The position numbers were made by a program, and so were the translations under genes. Below the pieces are notes generated by a model. It was not told the DNA's origin. It saw only the letters and a list, made by a program, of their open reading frames with translations, and did not search any database. Below, one piece after another: positions 1,281-61,929 of a stretch of DNA of 64,000 nt. Location of the stretch: the NCBI GenBank assembly GCA_029008875.1, contig JAQXJP010000018.1:1-64000 (forward strand). The letters are read 5' to 3'. The stretch is from Lachnospiraceae bacterium. Its GTDB lineage: Bacteria; Bacillota; Clostridia; Lachnospirales; Lachnospiraceae. Every line of letters starts with the position of its first letter. The stretch's first letter is position 1.

Positions 1281-1645
1281 GGGGTACAGAATTCGATTTG
1301 TCGCTTCCTATACCCCGGAACTGAAAACCGCCAGGGTACAGAGTTCAATTTGTCGTTTCCTATACCCCGGAAATAAAATCTACTGGGGTACAGAATTCAA
1401 TTTGTCGCTTCCTATACCCCGAAACTGAAAATCCCCGGGGTACAGAATTCAATTTGTCGCTTCCCATACCCCGGAACTGAAAATCCCCGGGGTACAGAAT
1501 TCAATTTGTCGCTTCCTATACCCCGAAACTGAAAACCGCCGGGGTACAGAATTCAATTTGCCGCCACCTATACCCCGGAAATAAAAATCCCCGGGGTACA
1601 GAATTCAATTTGTCGCTTCCCATACCCCGGAACTGAAAATCGCCA
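1281..1645. repeat. Seven tandem 52-bp hairpin units (GGGGTA...TACCCC), array 1
   Basis: Seven head-to-tail units of 51-53 bp fill most of the gap between cspA and the M16 gene. Each has a 36-bp conserved part that opens with GGGGTACAGAATTCAATTT and ends with TACCCC, so it can form a 6-bp GGGGTA/TACCCC stem with a 24-nt loop. A more variable 16-bp linker (such as GGAACTGAAAATCCCC) follows. A degenerate partial unit (GGGA...TCCCC) continues to about 1660. The unit length is not a multiple of three and there is no conserved reading frame, so the array is not protein coding. The same architecture recurs at 59875-60237. Confidence 0.93.
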
Positions 1646-16207: not shown

Positions 16208-17305
16208 ATGGCAGGATCATCATTTGGTACCGTTTTTAAAATAACAACCTGGGGGGAATCCCACGGAAAAGGAATCGGCGTGGTGGTGGACGGTTGTCCC
16301 GCAGGGCTTCCCCTCTGCGAGGAGGATATTCAGGAGTATCTCGACCGCAGAAAGCCCGGCCAATCCAAATTTACCACCCAGCGCCGGGAAGATGACGCCG
16401 TGGAGATTTTATCCGGTATTTTCGAAGGAAAAACCACGGGCACGCCCATTTCCATGGTGGTGTGGAACAAGGACCAGAAATCCAAGGACTACAGCGAGAT
16501 TGCGTCCTACTACCGCCCGGGGCATGCGGATTATTGCTTTGATGAAAAGTACGGATTCCGGGATTATCGAGGGGGCGGACGTTCCTCCGGCCGTGAGACC
16601 ATCGGACGTGTAGCCGCAGGTGCCATCGCCGCAAAACTGTTAAAAGAGATGGGGATTTCCATTTTGACATACACCAAATCCATCGGGCCGGTAACCGTGG
16701 ATTCGGATCGTTTCCGTGCGGAGGAAATCAATCAGAATGCTCTGTTTATGCCGGATGCCGTTGCCGCGCAGGAGGCGACCGCCTATTTGGAACAGTGCCT
16801 GTCGGAGAAAAATTCTTCCGGTGGCGTTGTAGAATGTGTGGTAACCGGTCTGCCGGTCGGATTGGGTGACCCGGTATTTGAAAAACTGGATGCCAATCTT
16901 GCCAAAGCCATCTTCTCCATCGGAGCGGTCAAAGGCTTCGAGATTGGCGACGGTTTTGATGCCGCTTGTGCCACCGGTCTCACCAACAACGATGCTTTTT
17001 GCATGGACAACGGAAAAATCTCCAAGAGGACCAACCATTCCGGCGGTACTCTGGGCGGGATGAGCGATGGCGCCCCGCTGGTATTCCGCGCGGCGTTTAA
17101 ACCCACCCCCTCCATCGCTGCCACCCAGCAGACCGTCAACAAATCCGGGGAAGAGATCGACATCAGCATCCACGGGCGCCACGATCCCATCATCGTTCCA
17201 AGAGCCGTGGTGGTGGTAGAAGCCATGACCGCACTCACCCTGGTGGATGCCATGCTCCTCAATATGGGGGCAAAGTTGGACTCCCTGGTGGATTTCTACG
17301 AATAG
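16208..17305 (+). CDS. aroC: Chorismate synthase
   Basis: The FMN-dependent enzyme removes phosphate from 5-enolpyruvylshikimate-3-phosphate to make chorismate, the last shared step of aromatic amino-acid synthesis. The 365-residue product carries all three family signatures: GESHGKGIGVVVDGCPAG near the N terminus, GGGRSSGRETIGRVAAGAIA, and RTNHSGGTLGGMSDG with the later RHDPIIVPRA. It is one of the four plus-strand genes and is monocistronic. It ends directly at the edge of a REP-like repeat block, whose first unit begins on the last base of the stop codon. Confidence 0.98.
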   Translation: MAGSSFGTVFKITTWGESHGKGIGVVVDGCPAGLPLCEEDIQEYLDRRKPGQSKFTTQRREDDAVEILSGIFEGKTTGTPISMVVWNKDQKSKDYSEIASYYRPGHADYCFDEKYGFRDYRGGGRSSGRETIGRVAAGAIAAKLLKEMGISILTYTKSIGPVTVDSDRFRAEEINQNALFMPDAVAAQEATAYLEQCLSEKNSSGGVVECVVTGLPVGLGDPVFEKLDANLAKAIFSIGAVKGFEIGDGFDAACATGLTNNDAFCMDNGKISKRTNHSGGTLGGMSDGAPLVFRAAFKPTPSIAATQQTVNKSGEEIDISIHGRHDPIIVPRAVVVVEAMTALTLVDAMLLNMGAKLDSLVDFYE

Positions 17306-17508
17306 GGACGTATCTTTTTCGCTCCGGGGACGTATCTTTTTCGCTCCGGGGACGTATCCTGTTCACAAAGAGGACACAATTCTCTTGAGGGACGTAACTT
17401 TTTCTAAAAAAGGACACATTTTCGTTCATGAAAATGTGTCCTTTTTGTGTAAAAGATACGTCCCTATTTGTAAAAGATACGTCCCCGGAGCGAAAAAGAT
17501 ACGTCCCC
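17305..17508. repeat. Large inverted block of GGGGACGTATCTTTTTC REP-like units
   Basis: Direct copies of GGGACGTATCTTTTTCGCTCC start at 17305 and 17326, followed by two diverged copies. Inverted copies (AAAAGATACGTCCCC) occupy the right part to 17508. The centre is a near-perfect hairpin, AAAAAAGGACACATTTTC against GAAAATGTGTCCTTTTT. The whole 204 bp fills the gap between convergent aroC and the U32 gene and could also terminate both. The same motif recurs at 28829-28916. Confidence 0.9.
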
Positions 17509-28743: not shown

Positions 28744-28828
28744 CTTGCTGATCCTTTCTCTTCTTGGACTAAAGCGCACAATTAAAGATATATTACCCCA
28801 TTTCTCCCCAGAAATCAACTTCCCCTCC

Positions 28829-28916
28829 GGGGACGTATCTTTTTCACTCTGGGGACGTATCTTTTTCACTCTGGGGACGTATCTTTTTCGCGCGGGGACG
28901 TATCTTTTTCGAAAAA
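28829..28916. repeat. Four tandem 21-22 bp REP-like units upstream of prmA
   Basis: Copies of GGGGACGTATCTTTTTC start at 28829, 28851, 28873 and 28894, joined by ACTCT or GCGC. The last copy runs into the palindrome TTTTTCGAAAAA. The motif is the one found at 17305-17508. Orientation is the same for all four copies. Confidence 0.92.
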
Positions 28917-32412: not shown

Positions 32413-32566
32413 CGTGACAAATTATGAAAAAGTTTTTTGTATGAAAACTTTCCTTTTCATCCGGTGATTCTAAGTCCAAGAATACAGATAAGATAATATG
32501 AAACAGCAGATCTATATGTAACACCTTATGCTTCATTTAGTTTCCGGGATATACATAGCAACTTGT

Positions 32567-32607
32567 TGCCCTCTGTACCCCGCGCACTTCTTCCCGCGGT
32601 ACGGGCA
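32567..32607. repeat. Single GGGGTAC-containing hairpin in the leader of the surface-protein gene
   Basis: TGCCC..GTACC.CGCG pairs with CGCGGTACGGGCA around an 8-nt loop. On the minus strand it contains GGGGTACAG, the start of the 52-bp array unit, so it may be a solitary diverged member. The rest of 32413-32684 shows no gene. Confidence 0.5.
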
Positions 32608-32684: not shown

Positions 32685-32722
32685 GAAAAAAAGCATCCAC
32701 GCTTTCTTTGCGCGAATGCTTC
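32685..32722 (-). terminator. Terminator of the J-domain gene
   Basis: On the minus strand, AGCATTCGCG and CGTGGATGCT pair and are followed by TTTTTTTC, directly past the stop codon at 32725. Confidence 0.8.
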
Positions 32723-57856: not shown

Positions 57857-58900
57857 TCATGCTTTACCAATCAATTTGTTCCAGCCTTCATGCCCCTTCA
57901 TATATCCGAAGGACTCCTCATCCCGAAATCCGTCCAACAACTTTTCTCTTAAATCCTCCAGAAATGCACTTTTCGGCTCGCTGAATTGCATATGCTGAAA
58001 CAAGCTTGAATTTCGGAAATCGCAGAGACTGCCTACACTTTTCATCAATTGCTCCACTACACGATATGTTTCCTCAACATTTCTTTCCGTACAAACCACA
58101 TCCAGCATGGATGAGCACTCATGGTACTTTCCCATTTCAAAAACACCCGCGATGGTCCCCATCTTCTCCGCCAGGTTGCGAGCCCCTCGGATATCCCCCT
58201 CCTCGAGCGCCATTGTCATCATGAGAGAAAAAGTACCGTTCAAGGTCTGGTATTCTGAGTACAATATCTCCTCAAAGGTTTTATATGCATTTTCTATCTC
58301 TCCCTGCTCCTTATACAGCCTCCCCTGATATATCTTTTTCATAGGATCCGCGTTGGAAAAAAACCTCAGGTATTCCTCTGCCTTCGCATAATCCTTTTTC
58401 CTCAGATAAAAACCGAATAAAGAATCTGCTGCATTGCGTTTTATTTCTTCATTCTCATCATTCAATGCGATTTCGTACCATGCGTTGATTTGTTCGTCAT
58501 ACTTTTCCGATTCAACGCTATCATCTATAATCCTTCTCGCATCCAGCATGACTGCTACCTGCCATATAAGCATATTGCAGTTCGGATATTCCCTGATTTT
58601 CTCCAAGGCCCACTCGTATGTGCTTTCAAATCCTTCCGTATCAAACCTCTCATCCATTTGCCGAATAATATCATCAATTTCAGCAGGTGTCAGTTTCTCA
58701 TGAAATGACAGCAGCGTATCGAGTGAAATATGTAAGAGCCTTGCAATCGGAGCCAGCAACTCAATATCCGGATTGGAATTTCCATTTTCCCATTTACTCA
58801 CTGCAGGAGTCGTGACTCCCAGCCTGTTGGCCATTTCCTCCTGGGTCATCCCCGCTTCTTTTCTATGTTTTCTGATTACTTCTGCAATGTTCATTTCCAT
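57857..58900 (-). CDS. XRE family regulator with TPR-like C-terminal region
   Basis: The 347-residue protein has an N-terminal helix-turn-helix of the Cro/C1 type (IRKHRKEAGMTQEEMANRLG and TPAVSKWENGNSNPDIELL, residues 8-50). About 250 helical residues in TPR-like pairs follow (EEIKRNAADSLFGFYLRKKDY, KIYQGRLYKEQGEIENAYK). This layout is common in Clostridia, often for peptide- or stress-responsive regulators, but no ligand is evident. It is monocistronic with its own dyad-containing promoter. Neighbours do not reveal its target. Confidence 0.85.
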   Translation of the reverse strand: MEMNIAEVIRKHRKEAGMTQEEMANRLGVTTPAVSKWENGNSNPDIELLAPIARLLHISLDTLLSFHEKLTPAEIDDIIRQMDERFDTEGFESTYEWALEKIREYPNCNMLIWQVAVMLDARRIIDDSVESEKYDEQINAWYEIALNDENEEIKRNAADSLFGFYLRKKDYAKAEEYLRFFSNADPMKKIYQGRLYKEQGEIENAYKTFEEILYSEYQTLNGTFSLMMTMALEEGDIRGARNLAEKMGTIAGVFEMGKYHECSSMLDVVCTERNVEETYRVVEQLMKSVGSLCDFRNSSLFQHMQFSEPKSAFLEDLREKLLDGFRDEESFGYMKGHEGWNKLIGKA

Positions 58901-58998: not shown

Positions 58999-59799
58999 TT
59001 AACCGTTAGTTATATACTCCCCAAAATACTCTCGTATGATTTTTTCCACTTTCTCAATACTCAACACATGTTCTTTGGTTTCAAATGTAGTAATCAGATT
59101 GATGGATGGAAGAATTCCGTTTTCACAATATAGCTTTATTTTCTGGCAGGCCTGATTAATGTACTTTGCGTCATCCATCATTCCAAAATGTTCCCAATAA
59201 ATGAATACACCGGTTGTCGGATGCCTTATCACAAAATCCGGATACAGTGTGATGTTGTCTAAAACAAGCTTTTCTTCATAGCGGAAAGGTATTCTATTTT
59301 GATATAGTAGCATGTCAATAATCGCCTCTGACTTAGAGCGAAGCATTTTCCCAGATGTACCCTTTACGACCAAAGTTTCCAAATGCTTGTTGCACCTTTC
59401 GTACTCAGCATTTTGCCATTCCATAAGGCTATCCTTCATAGGGGTAAAGTGTTTCGCAAGCAATTTTCTATATTCCGGGTGATGTAGCAATTTTTCCGAT
59501 TTATCTTCTCTTAACAATATTTTTTGTAGATAAGAATTACAAGCCGAAAGTTCACATTCCAGTTCCTCTCTCCTGTACCTATAATACTTTTTTACAGCCA
59601 ACATTTCTGCAAGCTCTCTCTTATTTTTTGAAAGATAAGAAGTTTGGTTCTCCTCCTTCAAATACCATTTATAGCGGCTACTATTTTTTGCACAAAGCAG
59701 TTCTCCCCTAGGACATTTCTTTTCATAAGTACTTATTTTTTCAAGTTCACTTTCCACCTCCTCTTTTCTCTTTTTCACAGCATCGTAATCTATACTCAT
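58999..59799 (-). CDS. Nuclease-like hypothetical protein with N-terminal coiled coil
   Basis: ATG 59799 follows AAGGAG by seven nt, giving 266 residues; the longer frame above it is unsupported. Residues 1-100 are charged and helical (KKRKEEVESELEKISTYEKK). The C-terminal half carries SKSEAIIDMLLYQNRIPF, then LYPDFVIRHP, then FIYWEHFGMMDD. The spacing E...D...ExH resembles the PD-(D/E)XK nuclease core of Vsr/DUF559-like enzymes. That assignment is by eye. It sits directly beside the second 52-bp repeat array and lacks an obvious partner gene. Confidence 0.65.
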   Translation of the reverse strand: MSIDYDAVKKRKEEVESELEKISTYEKKCPRGELLCAKNSSRYKWYLKEENQTSYLSKNKRELAEMLAVKKYYRYRREELECELSACNSYLQKILLREDKSEKLLHHPEYRKLLAKHFTPMKDSLMEWQNAEYERCNKHLETLVVKGTSGKMLRSKSEAIIDMLLYQNRIPFRYEEKLVLDNITLYPDFVIRHPTTGVFIYWEHFGMMDDAKYINQACQKIKLYCENGILPSINLITTFETKEHVLSIEKVEKIIREYFGEYITNG

Positions 59800-59874
59800 A
59801 TTAGTTCTCCTTAACTTACACCGATTTATTTTGCTCTGTTCTCTCAATGTATTGTCCCCACGATTTTCTCCTGT

Positions 59875-60237
59875 CGGGGTACATACGCCCTCTTTCGTGC
59901 TTCCCTACCCCGCAAAATTTCCTCATCGGGGTACATACGCCCTCTTTCGCGCTTTCCTACCCCGCAAATTTTCCTTTCCGGGGTACATACGCCTTCTTGT
60001 GCACTTTCCTGCCCCGCAAATTTTCCTCTCCGGGGTACATACGCCTTCTTGCGCACTTTCCTACCCCGCAAGCCCTTTCCTACCGGGGTACATACGCCCT
60101 CTTTCGCGCTTTCCTACCCCGTTTGTCTTTCTCGCCGGGGTACATACGCCCTCTTGTATACTTTCCTACCCCGCAAGTCTTCCCGCCGGGGTACATATAT
60201 CCTCTTGCATGCTCTCCTACCCCGGTAGTTCCAACTA
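59875..60237. repeat. Seven tandem 52-bp hairpin units (CGGGGTA...TACCCCG), array 2
   Basis: Seven units of 51-53 bp start with CGGGGTACATACGCC and end the conserved part with TTTCCTACCCCG, followed by a 13-15 bp variable linker such as CAAATTTTCCT. Stem CGGGGTA/TACCCCG, loop about 24 nt. A partial eighth unit (CGGGGCATAG) runs into the last codons of comEC, whose stop is at 60235. On the minus strand the loop shares GGAA.GCG..AAA...TGTACCCC with array 1. Confidence 0.93.
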
Positions 60238-61929
60238 CGGGGCATAGCATCGACTAATATCTTCATCAAACCCAATAATCTCTATTCTCTCCCTATTTAT
60301 ATTCAATTTAATCGCACCCATTTTATCTGTTCGAAACGCCTCACACCCAACTTCCCTGAGTCTTTCCATCGTCTCCTCATGGGGATGCCCATAGGAATTG
60401 CTCTCACTGCAGGACACGGATGCCAGCTCCGGCTCTATCGCTTCCAGCCAAGCCGCGCAGCTGGAATACCTTGAACCATGATGGTTGACTTTGTAAAAGT
60501 CCACATCTAGAAAAGGCGTTTGTTCTTCCGACGTTCTATCCCCGTATTGTTCCACAAGGATTCTCTCCACCTCCGATGAGATATCGCCAGCGAACATACC
60601 ACGAAAGTTCGCATCCTCGAAAACAAACGTTAGGCTCATATCATTTCTGTCCGCGCTGACATACTCTCTGTATGTATCCCCCGCTTCCTCGGTGGAACCT
60701 TTCACAACATTCCCTGTGCCATCCCCCGTTTCCTCCGATTGCTTTCCCGCAGGCCACAGAAATGTTATCCTCGATTTCTTCATCCGGAGGACATCCCCCG
60801 CCTTCACAGGCACAATCTGCGTGCGGGTTTTCTCCGCCAGCGCCAGCAGATCCTGTATCGCCTCATCCTCCATCGCCGATTCTGCCATCACCAGATAATC
60901 GATCTCATACCCGGATTCCATCACTTCCTTCAGACCGCTGATGTGATCCTCATCCCCGTGGGATACCATCCAATAATCGATGTGATCCGCTCCCTTCGCC
61001 TTCAAGAAGGGAAGGATTCGGTAGGTACCCACCGCTTTCACGTTGGTGCTTCCGCCATCCACAAAAAGGCATGCTCCCTCCTCGGTTCGGATAAAGGTGC
61101 CGTCCCCCTGGCCCACATCCAACACATCCACCTCGGGGCTCCTATTCCCAGGAACCAGGGCAAGCAGCAGGAGAAAAAGCATCCCACACACCCGAATACA
61201 ATGGCGCTCTCGGAACTTCTTCCACAACCAAGCCAGTGCAAGGAGCGCTGCATAAAACAGCACCACCCGAAAAAGCGTCGGTTTCCCCACAATCAATCCC
61301 GACTTCGGAAGCCGAAGCAACAGGGTCGCGGCCCCATCGTATAGATTGAGAATCAAGCGGCAGGGAAAAAGAATGATTCGGGCAATCCCCATATTCACAC
61401 AGCCAACAAGTCCACCTGCCAGGCCACACAGAAAAAGCACGGGCATCAGGGGAAGCACAAGCAGATTCAGCAGTGCACCATAGGTAGGAATTTCATAGTA
61501 ATAAAAAGCTACCAGCGGCATCGTTCCAAGCCAAACCATCAAGCTCCCGTAGACATGGTTGATTCGTTTCCCGCTCCGAGACATCCCATGTCCATCCTGC
61601 GGCCTTATCTGAATGCTCGAGCCTGCAATTCCGATTACAAGAATCGCCACCACCGAAAATTGGAACCCGGAATACCACAGCAAAAAAGGATTCTGCCACA
61701 GCAGAAGAATGACCATTCCTCCCAGAGAATTCAGCATATCGTAAGTTCTCCCCAGCACCCCGGCCAGCATAGCCAGAAAAGCCATCCCCACCGCTCTCCT
61801 GATGGAGATACTGTTTCCGGTCATGGAAGCGTACGCCAGCAAAGCGGAAAAAGCAACCGCAAAGGATGCCAAAAAACCTGCCCTCCTTCTCCGCAAAAAG
61901 CGGTAGAGCCCCATGCCCACCATGGACAC
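60235..61929 (-). pseudogene. comEC: 5'-truncated comEC (DNA uptake channel), half of the competence domain lost
   Basis: The frame is open from GTG 61929 for 564 residues. It begins inside the family motif SGLHxS: the codons ahead read (A)GLHVSMVG, and three codons further up is an in-frame TAG, beyond which coding character ends. The N-terminal membrane and OB-like part and the start of the competence domain (roughly 200-300 residues in relatives) are missing. What remains is several membrane helices and an intact metallo-beta-lactamase domain with LDVGQGDG (270-276) and HGDEDH (324-329). As a DNA channel it should be non-functional. No good ribosome site precedes the GTG. The 3' end merges with the repeat array. 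Confidence 0.85.

Follow-up and report, generated by a model that had tools for sequence, protein, structure and literature searches.

Helically phased arrays of paired half-sites in a Lachnospiraceae genome and an adjoining candidate nuclease gene, orfX

The DNA analyzed here, 64,000 nucleotides of contig JAQXJP010000018.1 from a gut Lachnospiraceae bacterium (assembly GCA_029008875.1, positions 1 to 64,000 of the forward strand; hereafter the window), contains two tandem arrays of an inverted repeat, arrays 1 and 2, which lie 58 kb apart, and array 2 adjoins a gene termed orfX. The arrays belong to a dispersed repeat family with fixed geometry, helical quantization of spacing, linkage between gene and array, and lineage-specific half-sites. 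On balance, we lean towards a reading in which these phased arrays of paired half-sites are read by the orfX product, a nuclease that would bind them, control its own gene through them and drive their spread by cutting. Feature coordinates are collected in Table 1.

Geometry and dispersal of the arrays

Array 2 units start at 59876, 59928, 59980, 60032, 60085, 60137 and 60188. The pattern GGGGTA-N24-TACCCC is exact in 6 of the 7, the third unit (59980) ending in TGCCCC, and the 36-bp units are separated by spacers of 15-17 bp. Array 1 shares the 36-bp palindrome and 16-bp spacer, and is likewise exact in 6 of 7 units. Tandem Repeats Finder (TRF) returned a period of 52 for both arrays (59875-60224, 6.7 copies; 1281-1648, 7.1 copies), and GGGGTAN{20,28}TACCCC matched 12 times in the window, against a mean of 0.01 in 100 shuffles. 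An earlier, sequence-only reading of the window had proposed that array 2 repeats the unit length, the seven units, the GGGGTA/TACCCC stem and the loop length of array 1, and TRF and pattern matches confirmed this. It had also seen common minus-strand loop text (GGAA.GCG..AAA); this proved to be out of register and, taken alone, not significant: with stems masked the minus-minus comparison gave a z of 1.6 (20 of 300 permutations as high). A covariance model, which the same reading had put forward as a check, added a lone unit (Table 1).

The genome that contains the window (G000) was searched for the repeat, and 38 matches per strand (control 2) were found in seven arrays, two on contig C7, two on C18 and one each on C24, C35 and C36; an isolated match on C6 is probably chance. 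These seven arrays on five contigs, together with relatives in other Lachnospiraceae genomes, bear out the dispersed family that had been suggested. Alignment A1 and model R1 were built from 34 of 42 units. When loops were compared in the family orientation with stems masked, 17 of 21 array pairs reached a z of at least 2 (7 of 21 in the opposite orientation); arrays 1 and 2 lie in opposite orientation, as judged by comparison with the other five. Array 1 minus versus C24 plus gave a z of 6.3, C24 plus versus C7b plus 3.7 and array 2 plus versus C7b plus 2.3. Array 2 was the weakest-linked member, reaching a z of at least 2 in no more than 2 of its 6 pairs. Homogenization within sites, also suggested before, was upheld: the mean loop score within an array (2.8 to 19.6) exceeded its means with other arrays (-9.6 to 3.9), and units were more alike within than between arrays in every array. 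The leader listed in Table 1 defined a pattern with 3 occurrences in its own genome (control 0), ahead of the lone unit and of the C24 and C35 arrays, and 0 in nine genus relatives; a degenerate copy at the C36 array was judged by eye.

Tandem matches with a 52-bp period were found in 4 of 299 genomes of the family (G000, G086, G125 and G200), while the control matched 2 of 299, once each. Exact GGGGTA-N24-TACCCC units numbered 31 in G000, 37 in G200, 57 in G299, 9 in G300, 11 in G301, 7 in G302, 15 in G303, 12 in G304, 5 in G305, 2 in G306, 5 in G307, 2 in G086 and 1 in G125; there were 0 in G292, of the same genus, and the reversed control gave 0 in all 14 genomes. The genome_contigs scan returned 37 stretches. 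Lachnospiraceae, Clostridia, Eubacterium or Agathobacter was the label of 33, and the other four carried the labels Prevotellaceae, Microcystis, Spirochaetales and Bacteroides, once each. The Microcystis (L076) and Prevotellaceae (L072) stretches were rejected by eye as chance, consisting of short GGGGTA(A)TACCCC or GGGGTACCCC repeats. A metagenome-assembled genome (MAG) labelled Bacteroides (L084, CAMECH010000002.1) appears, from orfX coordinates that match those of G094, to belong to the window's family. The Bacteroides label that its submitters gave to G307 is probably wrong, as its orfX coordinates and E-value are identical to those of G094, from that family. A viral origin was rejected, as the tandem pattern had 0 matches in viral_contigs.

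Across these genomes the half-sites, the 24-bp gap and the helically quantized spacing (about 52, 72 and 82 bp) are more conserved than the loop text. The conserved text is CGGGGTA/TACCCCG, and the same half-sites recur at unlinked places with unrelated loops. With gaps of 20-28 permitted in G200, 37 of 40 were exactly 24, with widely different loops. Unit-to-unit distances pooled from 13 genomes were 42, 50-54, 62, 71-74, 81-83, 104, 122 and 131-134 bp, that is, whole helical turns with none in between. Most loci were fetched by a pattern with a gap of 23-25 and a linker of 10-40, which bounds gaps and spacings; the searches of G200 and G000 allowed a broader range of gaps, and G200 was not bound by the 10-40 linker. 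For arrays near orfX (n = 47) the best Rayleigh period was 10.05 (R = 0.73), with R = 0.71 at 10.45, and for far arrays (n = 13) R was 0.37; related loci are counted as independent in these figures. By eye, seven G200 loci (L091, L092, L094, L097, L104, L105 and L108) each combine three palindromes into a composite element, in which the central palindrome is often degenerate (TGCCCC is one such ending). The linkers, about 14-16, 36 and 46-47 bp long, differ from one another by whole helical turns.

The earlier description of the unit as a stem with its loop is doubtful: the six outer pairs show no compensatory change, and the constancy of the gap, despite varying text, suits half-sites paired on double-stranded DNA. 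Under energy-based folding, loops beat shuffles in G200, CAMAKT, CAMEVC and SUG40, so a hairpin role is possible in some lineages, and 22 of 32 clusters lie between tandem or convergent genes with only 2 between divergent ones. Both observations would suit a unit that acts as RNA, its hairpins serving as terminators, mRNA stabilizers or processed RNA. That explanation is nevertheless decidedly improbable: apart from the lack of compensatory change in the outer pairs, a 10-pair stem was no better than shuffles, the spacing is quantized by turns of DNA, folding signal was little or none in G000, CAMAGI and RGIG406, Rfam models had 0 matches in the window, and array 2 contains no terminator-like site. 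Positional pairing inside the loop was inconsistent.

The orfX protein and its linkage to arrays

The open frame of orfX extends to a TTG at 59847, and array 2 lies just upstream, starting 76 bp from the ATG. At E 0.001 no Pfam family matched the protein, nor did any NCBIfam family match it. In an 89-row alignment (A3, which joined the window protein to 22 of the 120 homologues listed and to 66 proteins from the loci), E158 and P187-D188 were invariant and E203 and K220 were conserved at 90% or more. E203-H204 occupies the expected (D/E)xK position as a variant motif, and the acidic active-site residues are conserved and in the right order for the PD-(D/E)XK superfamily. The structure model was confident, with an N-terminal part predicted to be coiled-coil and beta-strand. 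orfX is very probably a nuclease, its nuclease fold and active site being predictions.

Homologues in a large protein database numbered 1551 at E of 0.001 or less among 2004 candidates, and a separate search found orfX homologues in 101 of the 299 family genomes. A phylum sample gave matches in 16 of 299 genomes, full-length only in four, all from the window's family, with one part of orfX alone matched in the other twelve. Eight relatives were found in viral contigs (seven matching from residue 141 on, one over residues 94-255), seven among plasmid records, none covering 80%, and three among phage records, of which one 4.2-kb record covers 86% at 26% identity.

Were orfX to serve its repeats, further copies of the gene would be expected beside other arrays, and many are found there. 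A tandem array lay within 800 bp at 47 of 87 orfX loci, a palindrome array of at least 3 copies at 33 of 87, and a tandem or spaced-palindrome array at 52 of 87; 95 control windows taken from the same loci held 0 tandem and 2 palindrome arrays. When 20 loci, most of them from genomes picked for their arrays, were excluded, 37 of 67 had an array. Tandem arrays were ten times denser near orfX (3.59 versus 0.36 per 10 kb), and the best one was upstream of the gene in 37 of 47 loci. One filter retained 75 of the 87 loci and removed those that were interrupted by in-frame stops, open at an end, lacking a clear start or of odd length. No arrays were found at 12 partial-match loci outside the family. 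An orfX homologue was present in 12 of the 13 unit-bearing genomes (none in G304), though a distant one in some of them (G306, G307 and G125), and G292, which lacks units, has distant ones. The pairing of orfX with arrays is well supported, and we have little doubt of it.

The half-sites beside other orfX copies differ (GTGGGCC, CACGGAC, CTACGG, TTACGTG, GTTGAC, TACGATTAT and more), and in some of these arrays the gaps are fixed and the loops unrelated. Judged by eye on the tree, relatedness between proteins tends to be matched by relatedness between their half-sites, though sister proteins can differ, with GGGGTA beside GTGGGCC. Of the seven full-length orfX copies in G207, which also has a fragment, five are accompanied by private arrays (TGGTAT, TTAGCC, TACGTG, CCTGCA and TACGTC; the CCTGCA array begins roughly 0.8 kb downstream of its orfX) and two have none. 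CACGGAC-N24-GTCCGTG matched 12 times on three contigs of G180 (100% complete) and was absent from nine other genomes searched, and in G213 the cognate palindrome is confined to the orfX array (8 copies). G305, G300, G301 and G299 each have an extra, more distant orfX copy beside a non-GGGGTA array (L137, L139, L141 and L142).

Likeness within arrays is compatible with slippage, as in chance local minisatellites with no functional tie to orfX. This is extremely improbable given that one pair of half-sites, with unrelated loops between them, recurs at unlinked places, and given controls of 0 and the tenfold density of tandem arrays near orfX.

A dedicated binding protein had been suggested as something to look for with the arrays; orfX, which adjoins array 2, is a strong candidate, and its binding we infer. 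Under the favored reading, an array would be a cluster of copies of a two-part DNA recognition site. The inverted half-sites CGGGGTA and TACCCCG would face each other across a 24-bp gap, their centres about three helical turns from each other, and successive sites would be whole turns apart, on the same face of the helix. A protein of the orfX family, encoded beside a master array, would read the site, each orfX lineage having its own half-site. It would bind the phased sites cooperatively, would use the upstream array to control its own gene and would occasionally cut or nick sites, and repair after cutting would expand and homogenize the arrays and copy them to new intergenic places. We put the chances that orfX spreads its sites at about even. 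Several points weaken this reading: 35 of 87 orfX loci have no detectable array, G304, G306, G307 and G125 have units and no close orfX, no empty site was found (at the purH locus, genus relatives gave no clean empty-site junction), many of the genomes are MAGs, and array 2 contains no sigma-70-like promoter on the orfX strand.

The missing promoter also counts against the view that orfX is an autoregulator or nucleoid-associated binder with no nuclease activity involved, whose arrays would be operators or clamps that ordinary tandem slippage has enlarged and chance recombination has scattered. The upstream position of the best array in most loci, and of array 2 in particular, fits such a binder, and helical phasing is usual for cooperative operators. 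We consider it unlikely, because catalytic-type residues invariant in 89 rows are unexpected for a pure binder, dispersed copies adjoin unrelated genes in many gene arrangements, and a shared leader marks element-like copies.

A further alternative is a defense or addiction module, in which the chromosomal arrays of a sequence-specific nuclease would act as decoys, self-markers or a brake. The nuclease domain of orfX is common to the PADLOC candidate PDC-S68 and is also found in plasmid proteins annotated as AAA family ATPase or RecQ. No conserved partner was found, however: 94 of 109 listed neighbor genes (A5) matched 173 Pfam families, each represented by at most 4 members, and the commonest PADLOC families matched 4 of the 94. 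Decoys need neither dispersal nor lineage specificity, and this alternative is improbable.

Genes and other repeats around the arrays

Table 1. Positions of the features discussed, in window coordinates.
Feature	Coordinates	Strand	Description
Array 1	1281..1628	- (family orientation)	Seven units, period 52
Short array	17305..17358		22-bp unit containing GGGACGTATCTTTTTC
Short array	28825..28910		22-bp unit containing GGGACGTATCTTTTTC
Leader	32518..32538	+	GTAACACCTTATGCTTCATTT; a similar leader precedes the C24 and C35 arrays
Lone unit	32546..32597	+	Degenerate, GGGATA...TACCCC; covariance model, 44.8 bits, E 5.9e-12
HTH_3 regulator gene	57857..58900		Adjoins orfX
orfX	58999..59799	-	266 aa from ATG; candidate cognate PD-(D/E)XK-type nuclease
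Array 2	59876..60223	+ (family orientation)	Seven GGGGTA-N24-TACCCC units, period 51-53
comEC-like gene	60235..61929	-	Competence and Lactamase_B; on the other side of array 2 from orfX

The order comEC, array, orfX was found by tblastn in the window and in L054, L068, L069 and L074. When the comEC-like protein is aligned with its L069 counterpart, the match begins only near residue 285 of the 803-residue L069 frame, and the N-terminal part seems to be missing in the window. Among 91 neighbor proteins (tally A2), Lactamase_B (5 of 91) and Competence (4 of 91), both parts of ComEC, were the commonest Pfam families; the tally comprised 90 of 102 listed genes and window 58999-59847, with ten loci excluded beforehand (six G200 duplicates, one G086, one G125, L072 and L076). 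No cas genes were present among the 25 commonest of the 164 Pfam families of these proteins, and the 16-bp spacers recur within arrays, unlike unique CRISPR spacers. The HTH_3 regulator has a 72% relative in the same place in RGIG406 (L074), and the only other match in that search was a short one of 36% in L018. In a rough survey by open frames, 7 of 32 clusters lay inside a frame of more than 300 bases. Rfam gave two matches in five other array loci, a tRNA and a ZTP riboswitch, the latter (L020:5486-5566) about 100 bp after the C36 array and ahead of a purH-like gene. The two short arrays share their unit, and beyond the lone unit, near 32700, there is a related GGAGCGTCCCC...AAAAAA stretch; units of this type are possibly another dispersed repeat.

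Known systems and significance

For REPINs, spacer length and hairpin capacity are reported to count for more than spacer text, and the repeats to adjoin their gene (PMC3116915); repetitive extragenic palindromic (REP) sequences are described as GTAG/CGTC-tagged palindromes (PMC3733652), and a paper on TnpAREP systems (PMC8266576) served for the comparison with REP-associated tyrosine transposases (RAYTs). The points in common are extragenic, dispersed inverted half-sites, a spacer kept for length or hairpin capacity rather than text, repeats that flank the cognate gene, and several gene-repeat pairs per genome. In contrast, orfX is of PD-(D/E)XK type and a RAYT is an HuH tyrosine transposase, short half-sites of 6-9 bp with no GTAG tag take the place of REP palindromes, and the orfX-linked units form helically phased arrays.

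That the arrays are ordinary REP elements or bacterial interspersed mosaic elements (BIMEs) moved by a RAYT (HuH Y1 transposase) would match their habit, being extragenic, palindromic, dispersed and gene-linked, and Y1_Tnp (PF01797) was matched in 5 of 13 unit-bearing genomes (G000, G200, G300, G302 and G303; those of G200 and G302 are fragments). The co-occurrence with a RAYT that had been suggested as a check was not seen in the other 8, G086 (100% complete), G125, G299, G301, G304, G305, G306 and G307. As the conserved text also carries no GTAG/CGTC tag, the family is not a REPIN/RAYT member, and with arrays adjoined by orfX, not by a RAYT, this explanation is highly improbable.

Other systems resemble parts of the one proposed. 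PADLOC candidates PDC-S68 and HEAT_CxxC_PDDEXK have a C-terminal nuclease domain in common with orfX (model matches at residues 151-275, E 4e-29, and 161-244, E 1.6e-5), and the PDC-S68 models are 1202-1273 positions long, compared with the 266 aa of orfX. TnsA of Tn7 and the catalytic domain of the homing endonuclease I-Bth0305I are among its closest known systems. Plasmid iterons with Rep, and phased operators, place binding sites whole helical turns apart beside the binder's gene. The arrays here are instead chromosomal and dispersed, with periods of 52-75 bp and a nuclease-like protein rather than a replication initiator.

A limited literature search, with most subscription journals and bioRxiv outside its reach, found no description of the system, and as no known system was found to couple this enzyme class to cognate phased arrays, it would be categorically new. 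We infer that a logic like that of REPIN/RAYT, run by an unrelated nuclease, is the best reading; it would be a convergent variant if RAYT/REPIN is taken as the kind. Whether there is a new class of small PD-(D/E)XK nucleases, each maintaining a private set of inverted sites with a fixed gap and helical phasing and spreading it over the host chromosome, several orthogonal pairs coexisting in one Lachnospiraceae genome, we regard as evenly balanced.

If true, the system would be a non-homologous counterpart of RAYT/REPIN and a second, unrelated answer to the origin of small extragenic palindrome families, which have been studied mostly through RAYT/REPIN. Because many orfX copies (52 of 87 loci) have a readable candidate site next to them, the adjoining array might reveal the sequence specificity of each, and a small nuclease whose natural sites are helically phased would be of interest for chromosome structure and DNA recognition.
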